64,000 bases of DNA from Thermococcus sp. SY098 (GTDB taxonomy: Archaea > Methanobacteriota_B > Thermococci > Thermococcales > Thermococcaceae): the NCBI RefSeq assembly GCF_035621495.1, contig NZ_CP141821.1:1826760-1890759 (forward strand). Direction: 5' to 3'. Under the pieces are notes generated by a model. The model was not told where the DNA came from. It made no database searches and saw nothing but the letters and a program-made list of their open reading frames with translations. Each line of letters opens with the position of its first letter. Positions within the stretch are counted from its first letter, which is position 1. A program made the translations under genes and the position numbers. Below, piece after piece: positions 48,621-52,909 of this stretch.

Positions 48621-49895
48621 ATGCATGAAATAGCAATCCGCATGACAAAAAGGAATCATAATGCCTTTGTCCACCTCCTTGGGGCATTAGAGAGCCAGGG
48701 ATTTGACATTGGTGAGCTTTTAATAACCAAGGACTTCAACGAAATCCTCAAAGCGAAGCCCAAAGTTGTTCTGTATTCTTTCTTCACTGAGGAAATTTGG
48801 GAAGTTGAGAAGGAAGTTAAAATCCTGAAGGAAAAATTTAGCCCTCTCTTAATTGCCGGTGGTTATCATGCTACCGCAATGCCAAAGCACACTTTGAATG
48901 TTTTAGGCTTTGATATTGCTGTAATTGGAGAAGGAGAAGAAGTTATCTATCAGCTTCTGACAACTCTAAAACAAACCAAATTTAAAATCACAAAGGAGCT
49001 ATTGTCCATTCGCGGTCTGGCATTCTATTTGGATGGAGAATTCGTATTCACAGGATTTGCTAAAGTTGATGATTTTGCTAAGTTTCCTCCCTTTGCGGAA
49101 AGCTCTTTTTTAATAGCACCTATTGAGATAAGCAGGGGCTGTCCCTTTGGGTGCTACTACTGCCAGACACCTTACATTAAGGGATTTAGGATGAGACATA
49201 GGCCAATAGACCAGATTGTGAAGTATTCAAAAAGAATGAGGGATATGCGTTACATCACTCCAAACGCCTTTGCTTACGGAAGTCCAGGAGCAGTTTTAAA
49301 ACTTGATAAACTTGAAGCCCTTCTAAAAGCTCTGCAACCGTTAAGAAAAGAAGGACGGCGTTTGTTTTATGGAACGTTTCCGAGTGAAGTGAGACCAGAA
49401 TTTGTGAAGCCCGAGACTCTTGAGCTTCTCATAAAGTATGCGGACAACAGAAGATTAGCTATTGGGGCGCAGAGTGGAGATGATGCCATGCTTAAGGCTA
49501 TGCACCGCTTGCATACAGTTCGTCATGTGATGGAAGCTGTTGAGTATATGATTGAATACGGGATTGAGCCGGTTGTTGATTTCATTGTCGGCTTGCCTAA
49601 TGAAAGTGAAGAAAGCCAGAGAAAGAGCATTGAGCTGATGAAGTGGATTATGCGTAAGGGCGGAAAGGTTAGAGCCCACTACTTCATGCCCCTACCAGGA
49701 ACTCCTTGGGCGAGGTGTAAACCTTCACCATTAAGTGAGGAGATGAAAAAATTTTTGGGCAGGATGGCCGCTAAAGGTTACATTGAAGGAGCATGGGGCA
49801 TTCAGATTCAGCTTTCCAAAAAATTGCAGAGGTTGATTGAGGAATTTTATGAAGAGCCTATGAGCTACGTTGGGAAAGTTAAGGGGGTTTGCTGA
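48621..49895 (+). CDS. B12-binding domain radical SAM protein (TIGR04013-like)
   Basis: 424 residues. An N-terminal Rossmann-type cobalamin-binding-like domain (about 1-125, AGGYHATAMPKHTL and IGEGEEVIYQLL) precedes a radical SAM domain with ISRGCPFGCYYCQTP near residue 175 (CxxxCxxC cluster), then GAQSGDDAMLKAMHR and DFIVGLPNE. Resembles the archaeal TIGR04013 group; the reaction is unknown, though such enzymes commonly methylate or add methylthio groups. Start ATG 48621 without a clear ribosome binding site. Confidence 0.85.
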   Translation: MHEIAIRMTKRNHNAFVHLLGALESQGFDIGELLITKDFNEILKAKPKVVLYSFFTEEIWEVEKEVKILKEKFSPLLIAGGYHATAMPKHTLNVLGFDIAVIGEGEEVIYQLLTTLKQTKFKITKELLSIRGLAFYLDGEFVFTGFAKVDDFAKFPPFAESSFLIAPIEISRGCPFGCYYCQTPYIKGFRMRHRPIDQIVKYSKRMRDMRYITPNAFAYGSPGAVLKLDKLEALLKALQPLRKEGRRLFYGTFPSEVRPEFVKPETLELLIKYADNRRLAIGAQSGDDAMLKAMHRLHTVRHVMEAVEYMIEYGIEPVVDFIVGLPNESEESQRKSIELMKWIMRKGGKVRAHYFMPLPGTPWARCKPSPLSEEMKKFLGRMAAKGYIEGAWGIQIQLSKKLQRLIEEFYEEPMSYVGKVKGVC

Positions 49896-49972
49896 TTACT
49901 TCTTTTGGTTGTTTTAGTTTAATACTTGTTTCTTTTTGAAATTTTGTAAAGTTTTAAACTTTTGGTTCACGA

Positions 49973-50007
49973 AATTTTTATATTTCTTAGTTGCAAATTT
50001 TTATATG
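49973..50007 (+). promoter_or_regulatory. duplicated TATA element before the halocin-C8-like gene
   Basis: AAATTTTTATAT occurs twice, at 49973-49984 and 49996-50007. The first has the spacing needed for a start about 25 bases downstream and leaves room for the G-rich Shine-Dalgarno at 50017-50025. Confidence 0.5.
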
Positions 50008-50028
50008 ATAACCCGTTGGGGGGGGCGA

Positions 50029-50727
50029 ATGAGGAGGAGAGCATTGTTGGGCATTTTTGTGATATTGTTGGTGGTTGGAGCATATGGAGTATATGTGGTT
50101 AGTTATCCACAGTACCCAAAAATTAATAAGTGTGTCAACCCTTTTAGGGAAGTTAAACCAATACACCAAACTCAAGAAAATTGGTCAAAAATTCATTTTA
50201 TATTTGCAGTTTTAACAAATAGGGACTTATTGAAACTTGCTAAGCCGTGGAATATAGACTATAATCTGACTTGGGTTTCAAAATTTAAGCTTCAATATGG
50301 TAAAGAACAAGTCTCAATGACAGCGATAGCAATCGTGTTGAAAAATCACAAACGTGCAGTAGTAATGTACAAATTTTCTAAGCCAGTAGATGGAGTTTAT
50401 ACGTTGACTAAAGTGTTGTCGTTCTCAAACAATACTGCACACGTAACCTCCATGATAATAAATGGCTACGAGATACAAACTAGCTCATGTGTCAATGAGT
50501 GTGGCAGTTGTAATATTTTAGAACATTGTGAGTCTTATTGTTGCGAACCATGTGCAAATACTCAGTGTATGGCATATTGTGCTGCTCCAGGATGCTACTT
50601 AGCCTGTGGATGGCTGCCATATCCAATAGCACTTCCATGTTGGATGGCGTGTGCAGGCTTTTGCTGTGAATATGTCTGCTGTGGACAGGAGGGTGGAAAA
50701 TGCGTGCCAAATTACATTGGGCCTTAA
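50029..50727 (+). CDS. halocin-C8-like precursor: membrane-anchored protein with 18-Cys C terminus
   Basis: 232 residues. Basic start MRRR, one hydrophobic segment (about 6-24), then a polar domain of about 125 residues with a single cysteine (Cys35), then a 72-residue tail (154-225) holding 18 cysteines, several in CC pairs, mixed with a hydrophobic stretch (AAPGCYLACGWLPYPIALPCW). This layout, anchor or signal, longer N-terminal domain and a compact Cys-rich hydrophobic C-terminal peptide, matches the halocin C8 precursor, in which the tail is the released antimicrobial peptide and the N-terminal part gives immunity. Here the tail has more cysteines than halocin C8 (ten). Start ATG 50029 behind a run of G. 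Function is inferred. Confidence 0.7.
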   Translation: MRRRALLGIFVILLVVGAYGVYVVSYPQYPKINKCVNPFREVKPIHQTQENWSKIHFIFAVLTNRDLLKLAKPWNIDYNLTWVSKFKLQYGKEQVSMTAIAIVLKNHKRAVVMYKFSKPVDGVYTLTKVLSFSNNTAHVTSMIINGYEIQTSSCVNECGSCNILEHCESYCCEPCANTQCMAYCAAPGCYLACGWLPYPIALPCWMACAGFCCEYVCCGQEGGKCVPNYIGP

Positions 50728-50933
50728 CGTACCTCTCTAATATTTTTGATCCATTTCCGAGGAGCTTCATGAAAAGGTTCGTATGTTACCTAGGGGCTTC
50801 ATCTGTTGTATATTTCTACGGTTATTCATCAACTGCTCTCTTAATTCTGGGAGAGCTTATTGCAATAGACCTCCTAATAACTGCAACTATCTTTCTATAC
50901 AAACGGCATTACAGAACTAGCCCTAAAGCCTAA
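50700..50933 (+). CDS. small membrane protein overlapping the halocin-C8-like gene
   Basis: 77 residues starting at ATG 50700 after GGAGGGTGG, overlapping the end of the previous gene by 28 bases in another frame, so translation is coupled. Contains a basic N-terminal part, FMKRFVCYLGASSVVYFYGY, and one or two hydrophobic helices (TALLILGELIAIDLLITATIFLY). It faintly resembles DUF2061 membrane proteins. An immunity or export role is suggested only by position. Confidence 0.6.
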   Translation: MRAKLHWALTYLSNIFDPFPRSFMKRFVCYLGASSVVYFYGYSSTALLILGELIAIDLLITATIFLYKRHYRTSPKA

Positions 50934-51129
50934 TAATTTTTTTGTAGGTATCTTTGCGCATTTTGTCTGAGGAAGGGTACTTAATGTGAGAATGGTTCTC
51001 AAGGAACTGGTATAGTTAGAAAATTTAAGCCTTGGAGAAGCTGGGATACTGGCACTTTGAAACTTATGACATTACTCCACAGCAATAAGATTTATAACCT
51101 CATAAACTTCTCATCAACACGACGGCAAA
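50934..51129. other. intergenic stretch before Toprim gene
   Basis: No gene recognised. Contains a short hairpin GAGAA-TGG-TTCTC (about 50987-50999) and, near 51092-51102, AGATTTATAAC, a plausible TATA for the Toprim/DnaG genes. Confidence 0.4.
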
Positions 51130-51507
51130 ATGTATGCCGAAAACTATAAAAGATTTGAACTGCTGATAGATAAATTGCGAGAGTTTGATGGTGCTATCAT
51201 CGTGGAAGGTTTGCGAGACGAGGTGGCTTTAAGGAAATTGGGGGTCAGAGCGGAGATAATAAGGCTCTCACGCTTACCGCTCTCAGAAGTGGCTTTAATT
51301 GCTTCACAGTATCATGAGGTCATGATATTAACTGATTTGGACAGAAAAGGTGAAGAGCTGGCGAAAAAGCTGACTCAATATTTGGAAGGCTATAAATGCA
51401 GAGTAGATACAGAGACAAGAAAAGAGCTCAAAATGATTGCAAAAAAGGACATTAAGGGCATTGAGGACTTGTATGGACTCTACACTAAAGTCACTCTCCG
51501 TTTCTGA
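51130..51507 (+). CDS. small Toprim domain protein
   Basis: 125 residues: a stand-alone Toprim fold with the acidic motif IIVEGLRDEVALRKLG near residue 23 (Glu) and MILTDLDRKGEEL near 65 (DxD), the metal-binding pattern shared by primases, topoisomerases, OLD nucleases and RNase M5. Similar archaeal proteins are predicted RNA- or DNA-processing enzymes; exact reaction unknown. Positioned directly before dnaG, itself a Toprim protein. Confidence 0.85.
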   Translation: MYAENYKRFELLIDKLREFDGAIIVEGLRDEVALRKLGVRAEIIRLSRLPLSEVALIASQYHEVMILTDLDRKGEELAKKLTQYLEGYKCRVDTETRKELKMIAKKDIKGIEDLYGLYTKVTLRF

Positions 51508-51529
51508 CCCCCTTAAGGAGGGGATTTCC

Positions 51530-52909
51530 TTGAAAAGAAAAAGGACAGTGCTCCAACATATTTTGTCGGAAAAGCAAAAGTTTGAAAAAAGAAAGGTAGG
51601 TGGGAACATGTCAGCAAAGGACGATTTTGGAACAACTAAATATGTGATCTATGCTGAATTTGAGGCGAATGGAGTTGTTGAAAGACCTGACGTTGTTGGG
51701 GCTATTTTTGGTCAAACTGAGGGGCTACTTGGAGACGATTTGGATTTAAGAGAGCTCCAAAAGACTGGTAGAATTGGAAGGATAAAAGTTGAAGTTCATA
51801 CAAAGGCTGGAAAAACATACGGAACAATTACAGTGCCATCAAGTCTTGATAGGGTTGAGACAGCTATCTTAGCAGCTGCACTGGAAACAATAGATAGGGT
51901 TGGGCCATGTGAGGCAAGGATTAAAGTGATAAAAATCGAAGATGTTAGGGCAACAAAGAGGAAATACATCATTGAGAGAGCTAAAGAGATACTTGAGACA
52001 CTTATGGAGGAGGAAATTCCGGAGAGCCAAGAGCTCACTGAAGAAGTCAAAAAGGCAGTCAGGGCAAAGGAGCTCATTGAATATGGTCCCGAAAAATTAC
52101 CAGCTGGGCCTCATGTGCCGTTTTCAGACTCAATTATCGTCGTTGAGGGAAGAGCTGATGTGCTCAACCTCCTCAAGCACGGAATAAAGAATGCCATTGC
52201 CGTTGAGGGAACTTCAGTTCCAGAGACAATTATCAGACTGAGCAAGGAAAGAATTGTAACGGCATTTACGGATGGAGACAGAGGTGGAGAGCTTATCCTT
52301 AAGGAGTTGCTGCAAGTTGCCGATATTGATTATGTGGCAAGAGCGCCAGAAGGAAAGGAAGTTGAGGAGCTTACAAAGAAAGAGATAATAAAAGCTTTGA
52401 GGAGCAAAGTACCAGCAGAACAGGTTATAAATGAGCTGTTCTACAAAGGCAAAAGCTTCTATGATTTAATCAAGGAAAAAGAGAGAGAAAAGTCTGAAGA
52501 AACAAGAAGGGAGGAAGTTAGAGTAGAGAAGCCCCCTGTTGCAGTTAAAGAGGAAGGAAAAGAAGCGAGAGTCGAACAAAAGAGGGAAGAGAAATTTATA
52601 AAGCCGATTCAGGTTCCAAAAGCAGCAGAACTTGAGAAATTCAAGGAATTCGTCGAAAAAGTGAGAAACAATTCAATGGCTATCTTGCTGGATGAGGATA
52701 GGAACGTCATTGCGGAAATACCGGTTAGAGATCTACTTAGCTCTTTAAATGACAAAGAGGGAATACATGCAATAATATTCAACGGCATAATAACGCAGAG
52801 GTTAATTGACATTGTAAGTGAAAAGGGAGTCAAATACTTAATTGGGGCAAGGAAGGCAAATGTAGTTAGAAGACCAGTTGATTTGAAGATCATTACTTTT
52901 GCTGAGTAA
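51530..52909 (+). CDS. dnaG: DNA primase DnaG, archaeal
   Basis: Archaeal DnaG, Toprim protein found both with primase activity and as a component of the archaeal exosome. Core: TTKYVIYAEFEANGVVERPDVVGAIFGQTEGLLGDDLDLRELQKTGRIGRI (in pieces), VEGRADVLNLLKHG and VTAFTDGDRGGELILKELL (Toprim acidic residues). A Lys/Glu-rich linker and a conserved C-terminal domain follow. Start uncertain: TTG 51530 has a strong AAGGAGGGG site (51514-51522) and gives 459 residues; ATG 51608 gives 433. Confidence 0.93.
   Translation: MKRKRTVLQHILSEKQKFEKRKVGGNMSAKDDFGTTKYVIYAEFEANGVVERPDVVGAIFGQTEGLLGDDLDLRELQKTGRIGRIKVEVHTKAGKTYGTITVPSSLDRVETAILAAALETIDRVGPCEARIKVIKIEDVRATKRKYIIERAKEILETLMEEEIPESQELTEEVKKAVRAKELIEYGPEKLPAGPHVPFSDSIIVVEGRADVLNLLKHGIKNAIAVEGTSVPETIIRLSKERIVTAFTDGDRGGELILKELLQVADIDYVARAPEGKEVEELTKKEIIKALRSKVPAEQVINELFYKGKSFYDLIKEKEREKSEETRREEVRVEKPPVAVKEEGKEARVEQKREEKFIKPIQVPKAAELEKFKEFVEKVRNNSMAILLDEDRNVIAEIPVRDLLSSLNDKEGIHAIIFNGIITQRLIDIVSEKGVKYLIGARKANVVRRPVDLKIITFAE

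Follow-up and report, generated by a model that had tools for sequence, protein, structure and literature searches.

What is the function of a protein that crowds 18 cysteines into 72 residues, and whose gene runs directly into that of a small membrane protein? The question is raised by a locus within the 64-kb stretch of Thermococcus DNA analysed here (64,000 nucleotides; hereafter the window), for which a first-pass annotation had proposed a halocin-C8-like antimicrobial precursor and a partner serving export or self-protection. The features of the locus, with the evidence for each, are the following:

49899-51086, no strand: 1188-bp insertion holding only the promoter, the toxin gene and the membrane-partner gene (blastn against empty sites)
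49940-50028, plus strand: promoter and leader, with an A/T-rich TATA-like box at about 49975-49985 and a G8 Shine-Dalgarno-like tract at 50018-50025 directly before the ATG (upstream regions of relatives)
50029-50727, plus strand: predicted archaeocin precursor, 232 aa (translation; homologues; AlphaFold2 model, pLDDT 78, pTM 0.73)
50032-50100, plus strand: N-terminal signal or anchor helix, residues 2-24 (hydrophobic helix in the AlphaFold2 model)
50155-50478, plus strand: conserved N domain, residues 43-150 (family alignment; AlphaFold2 model; remote similarity to halocin-C8 precursors)
50488-50724, plus strand: hypervariable Cys-rich tail, residues 154-232, 18 Cys, likely the released toxin (even Cys number; tail swapping)
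50700-50933, plus strand: 77-aa membrane protein, predicted cognate immunity protein (co-variation with the tail; intact orphans; helices in the model)

The precursor ORF translates into 232 residues plus a stop codon. Its 18 tail cysteines all fall within residues 154-225, and residues 1-153 contain a single one, C35. In the AlphaFold2 model (13 sequences), a hydrophobic helix at residues 2-24 is followed by an α/β domain at about residues 43-150, in which helices give way to antiparallel strands and which ends near the invariant N145-G146, and by a tail of helices and strands. When all stop-free stretches of at least 80 codons in the window were ranked by Cys count per 80 residues, the precursor came first with 18, the runner-up being a spurious antisense frame with 12. 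Translation and model thus confirm the architecture that had been read from the sequence beforehand, an N-terminal anchor, a Cys-poor middle and a 72-residue tail with 18 Cys, and the ranking bears out that this Cys-richness is exceptional in the window. Neither the precursor nor the 77-aa protein had a significant match in Pfam, NCBIfam or PADLOC, and the comparison with solved folds returned no fold match. A similarity to omwaprin (WAP), obtained in a sequence search against solved structures, was weak (E=0.26) and not significant, and we discarded it.

A single-protein query against genome contigs gave no matches, and an alignment query was needed to find relatives. At a loose limit of E≤0.1, the precursor was matched in 48 of 94 Thermococcaceae genomes, in five of the six genera; about 30 of these matches are intact and full-length, the remainder being decayed, partial or weak. 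A profile search across the phylum recovered 48 of 115 genomes at E≤0.01. Beyond the Thermococcaceae, the family occurs in an Archaeoglobus metagenome-assembled genome and in two more among the 394 genomes of its phylum, and these members may reflect either horizontal transfer or an old origin outside Thermococcales; two members of this Archaeoglobus type (L105:5995-6702 and L132) have several membrane ORFs downstream. Viral contigs and plasmids contained no relative, and we rejected a viral or plasmid origin. In most of the closer pairs, dN/dS of the N part is about 0.05-0.1, pointing to strong purifying selection; with this constraint and its conservation across Thermococcaceae, the precursor ORF is not a chance reading frame. 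C35, the only Cys of the N part, is invariant in the intact Thermococcaceae members (29/29) and apparently unpaired.

The tail has a different history. Mean identity among the 29 intact members is 74% in the N part and 41% in the tail, and individual pairs are mismatched in both directions, with N part and tail identities of 95% and 32% for L042/L049, 98% and 50% for L048/L065, and 59% and 80% for L057/L069. The N parts of L048/L065, L042/L049 and L043/L059 differ by a dS of 0.28, 0.34 and 0.48, respectively, while tail dS is saturated in these pairs, indicating that tails have been replaced and are not merely fast-evolving. For L048/L065, nucleotide identity is 0.93-1.0 from the upstream region to about position 270 (0.95-1.0 in most of the 5' part) and above 0.8 to about 390; beyond this point, tail and downstream gene are at most about 0.5 identical, and the value reaches 0.92 again near the end of the compared region. 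Tail and partner have been exchanged together, with a breakpoint near codon 130. Despite this variability, the tails carry 14, 16, 18 or 20 Cys in all 29 intact Thermococcaceae members, and the number is likewise even in all 27 tails of a wider set that includes two non-Thermococcaceae members and forms 15 clusters at 55% identity. Were parity random, the calculated chance of 15 independent tails all being even would be 2^-15; an even count in every examined intact tail is what is expected for disulfides.

The 77-aa ORF begins within the toxin gene, overlapping its last 28 bases, stop codon included, and its Shine-Dalgarno, GGAGGGTGG, lies in the toxin's last codons, formed by those for Glu-Gly-Gly. 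This arrangement, noted at first reading, was confirmed, as was the membrane character of the product, for which a helical structure and two hydrophobic stretches are predicted; the model shows helices at residues 2-15, 20-39 and 43-72, the last being the longest. As homologues exist in more than a dozen genomes, this ORF is not a chance product either. A small ORF of 75-142 aa, predicted to contain membrane helices, adjoins the toxin gene at 29 of 31 loci; its start lies at most 55 bases ahead of the toxin stop and at most 12 bases behind it. Partner similarity and tail similarity showed no significant rank correlation overall, most pairs being noise, and the binary test that follows was chosen after that failure. 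With partner homology defined as blastp E<1e-3 and a similar tail as identity above 0.55, partners were homologous in 13 of 17 pairs with similar tails and in none of the 308 other pairs (permutation p=5e-5); one of the four similar-tail pairs without blastp-detectable partner homology could be linked via intermediates. Where N parts are near-identical and tails differ, partners were never homologous (0/24), and where N parts have diverged and tails are similar, they were so in five of six pairs. By these comparisons the partner evidently co-varies with the tail, not with the N part.

Partners also outlive their toxins. In G014, G016, G023, G061, G070, G071 and G073, the toxin gene is dead but the homologue of the 77-aa protein next to it is intact; in G093, an intact homologue adjoins a short remnant resembling a tail, and in G053, a homologue follows a toxin bearing another tail. 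Survival after loss of the toxin is expected of an immunity protein, and not of an exporter or a receptor. At four loci (L023, L029, L032 and L033), internal deletions in dead toxin genes have removed what lay between the signal anchor and the end of the tail, with the partners intact.

In the window, promoter, toxin gene and partner gene are flanked by an intact radical-SAM gene (48621-49895) on one side and by a TOPRIM-type gene (51130-51507) on the other. The 1.19-kb insertion is missing from at least five same-genus genomes; five match 49001-49898 and 51087-51700 by blastn, with about 32 bp in between, so that the window copy would be a recent gain or else have been lost by relatives. We considered the radical-SAM neighbour as a peptide-modifying enzyme and rejected it, as it adjoins the same TOPRIM gene at the empty sites and is not found beside other members. 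The promoter and leader have about 0.87-0.90 nucleotide identity to those of two same-genus members at other loci (L055 and L067), the coding part being less similar. Relatives likewise have a TATA-like box upstream, and almost all of them a G-run of 4-12 at the equivalent place before the ATG; the G8 tract of our locus is the sole G-run of at least seven in the window. This run may serve as Shine-Dalgarno, and its length could vary by slippage and so tune expression. At least two promoter types, TTTGGTT...TTATATA and TTTC..GCGAAAGTGTTATATA, recur upstream of family members, suggesting specific regulators.

Based on these results, we consider it very probable that the locus encodes a secreted archaeocin together with a dedicated immunity protein, and that it represents a new family with tail swapping like that of polymorphic toxins. 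The earlier proposal of an antimicrobial precursor with a partner is supported for the conserved N part, for the disulfide-type tail and, through co-variation and orphans, for a partner in self-protection; it is not supported for the halocin C8 identity.

It is conceivable, if rather improbable, that the pair serves recognition of self and non-self at the cell surface without any killing, the anchored protein displaying its variable tail and the matching membrane protein recognising it. The N-terminal anchor, which lacks an obvious cleavage signal, would suit such a role, as would a hypervariable module with co-varying membrane proteins. A precedent exists in the same order: the VARTIG modules of Thermococcales (arCOG07710) are tail-variable, associated with membrane proteins and, like the present family, located in hypervariable islands with C-terminal shuffling and membrane-protein co-variation (PMC8416519). 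VARTIG proteins, however, are large Ig-domain proteins of several hundred residues (PMC8416519), in contrast to a Cys-rich precursor of 232 aa. More importantly, partners remain intact in several genomes in which the protein to be displayed is dead, which fits immunity but not a receptor deprived of its ligand. A toxin is also favoured by the small size of the tail, its hydrophobicity and its wealth of disulfides, and by the remote link to halocin-C8 precursors.

A second alternative, largely refuted by now and in our estimate very unlikely, is a true halocin C8 member, in which the N part confers immunity and the 77-aa protein assists export. The gene plan is indeed the same, as halocin C8 precursors (ProC8/HalI-HalC8) also combine a signal or anchor, a conserved N part and a Cys-rich hydrophobic C-terminal peptide, which in both cases ends in C-x(n)-G-x-x-C. 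In addition, hhalign aligns the N domain with halocin-C8 precursors (E=7.9e-6, P=84%), and the score of 44.7 exceeds the 24.7 reached by the best of 52 real decoys; with N parts alone, the score is 26, and the best of 60 column shuffles reached 14.9. This suggests a remote similarity, confined to the N domain. None of the 29 members matches TIGR04449 (halocin_C8_dom), or any Pfam or NCBIfam family, and the family tails score 10.6 against halocin-C8 tails, inside the shuffled null (maximum 14.1), whereas two halocin-C8 groups, as a positive control, score 60 against each other. The tails further differ in having 14-20 Cys, compared to 10 in halocin C8, and the family has a basic n-region but no conserved twin arginine as in a Tat signal, its N-termini reading MRRRALL, MRKRALL, MRKAILG, MRKKLSL and MKKHMLS. 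Carriers may therefore be distantly related to halocin-C8 precursors, with different warheads.

The proposed division of labour is improbable as well. Unrelated tails are attached to N parts that are almost the same, which argues against the N part as the source of tail-specific immunity; by co-variation, this immunity would instead reside in the separate membrane protein and not within the precursor. For the latter, nothing suggests export: it tracks the tail and survives without the toxin, unlike an exporter. Proteins with the genuine halocin-C8 domain do occur in these archaea, as TIGR04449 scored above cut-off in six Thermococcaceae genomes, always at loci other than those of this family, and in 14 of the 394 genomes of the phylum of Archaeoglobus and the haloarchaea. 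The Thermococcaceae loci L108-L114 encode such separate precursors, with a conserved N part of their own, variable tails and small downstream membrane ORFs; at L110, a second, truncated copy with another tail lies downstream. A small membrane ORF directly follows some of the Thermococcaceae halocin-C8-domain genes and one Methanosarcina-like gene (L144, so named by resemblance only). No such ORF lies downstream at the haloarchaeal L137, one of the 14 just mentioned, which we take to contain the halocin C8 sequence. This is in line with the finding that the halocin C8 precursor itself matures into both the peptide and its immunity protein, HalI (PMC11509114).

Least credible is a membrane protein whose tail binds metal (zinc, Fe-S or metallothionein-like). 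The many Cys and the invariant lone C35 could be invoked for it, but Cys4 sites alone would not account for counts of 14 and 18, which are not multiples of four. The number is, moreover, always even, and the tail is hydrophobic, hypervariable, paired with a matching membrane protein and without a match to any metal-protein family.

Returning to the archaeocin and its immunity protein, the sequences themselves establish the architecture, the constraint on the N part, the even Cys counts, the exchange of cassettes, the pairing of partners with tails, the orphan partners and the empty site; from these we infer the following course for secretion, cleavage, killing, target and protection. The N-terminal helix would insert the precursor into the membrane with its body outside, where the α/β domain, common to all members whatever their tail, would carry, fold or silence the tail. 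The latter would form 7-10 disulfides and be cut off after the N domain, between N145-G146 and C154. The freed peptide, hydrophobic and stable to heat, would then act on related archaea at their envelope. Beside the window locus we found neither an exporter nor a protease dedicated to the peptide, so that export and processing are assumed to rely on general secretion and on housekeeping proteases; at other loci, no shared exporter or protease stood out. The 77-aa protein would protect the producer in the membrane, specifically against its own tail type. Tail and immunity gene are replaced jointly by recombination, for which the conserved 5' half provides one of the homology arms.

A conserved N part with an exchangeable C-terminal toxin, an adjacent cognate immunity gene that co-varies with it, orphan toxin tails and immunity genes nearby, and recombination at the border between conserved and variable parts are all features of polymorphic toxins of the Rhs/CDI/CdiA type (PMC3482391). 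The present family differs from these in its small 232-aa precursor, without a large delivery protein or secretion apparatus, in its toxin, which would be a small disulfide-rich peptide and not an enzyme domain, and in its membrane-embedded immunity. Searches of the precursor against Pfam, NCBIfam and PADLOC found no delivery or enzyme domain. In class II bacteriocins, a peptide toxin and a small multi-helix membrane immunity protein are encoded in one operon, and orphan immunity genes occur as well. Our gene pairs and orphans share these features, but neither a double-glycine leader nor a dedicated ABC transporter-protease was seen here, and the family has a long folded precursor domain and 7-10 predicted disulfides.

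In functional kind, the locus would be a bacteriocin-immunity pair. The papers searched, with partial coverage, contained no description of this family, be it of the tail fold, the carrier, the distribution in Thermococcales or the cassette swapping with membrane immunity, and no characterised Thermococcales antimicrobial peptide. The most pertinent survey, reportedly by Makarova et al. in mBio in 2019 and devoted to antimicrobial peptides and polymorphic toxins in archaea, may list some members. For the family as a whole, we lean towards a widespread polymorphic peptide-toxin system of Thermococcales, in which one universal carrier domain would serve at least 15 disulfide-knotted tails, every tail would have a membrane immunity protein of its own, tail and immunity cassettes would be exchanged between species, and orphan immunity genes would be kept as acquired resistance. 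The system is testable, in a genetically tractable order and in about half of its genomes, and it comes with natural material: toxin-immunity pairs on a common carrier domain, matched chimeras made by evolution, and dead toxins with live immunity genes. If our reading is correct, cassette exchange drives the evolution of small peptides in archaea as it does that of polymorphic toxins, a second tail fold is linked with halocin-C8-type precursors, and the family is a source of very stable peptides rich in disulfides. For Thermococcales, the swapping of tails with their probable protectors points to an uncharacterised chemical arms race.
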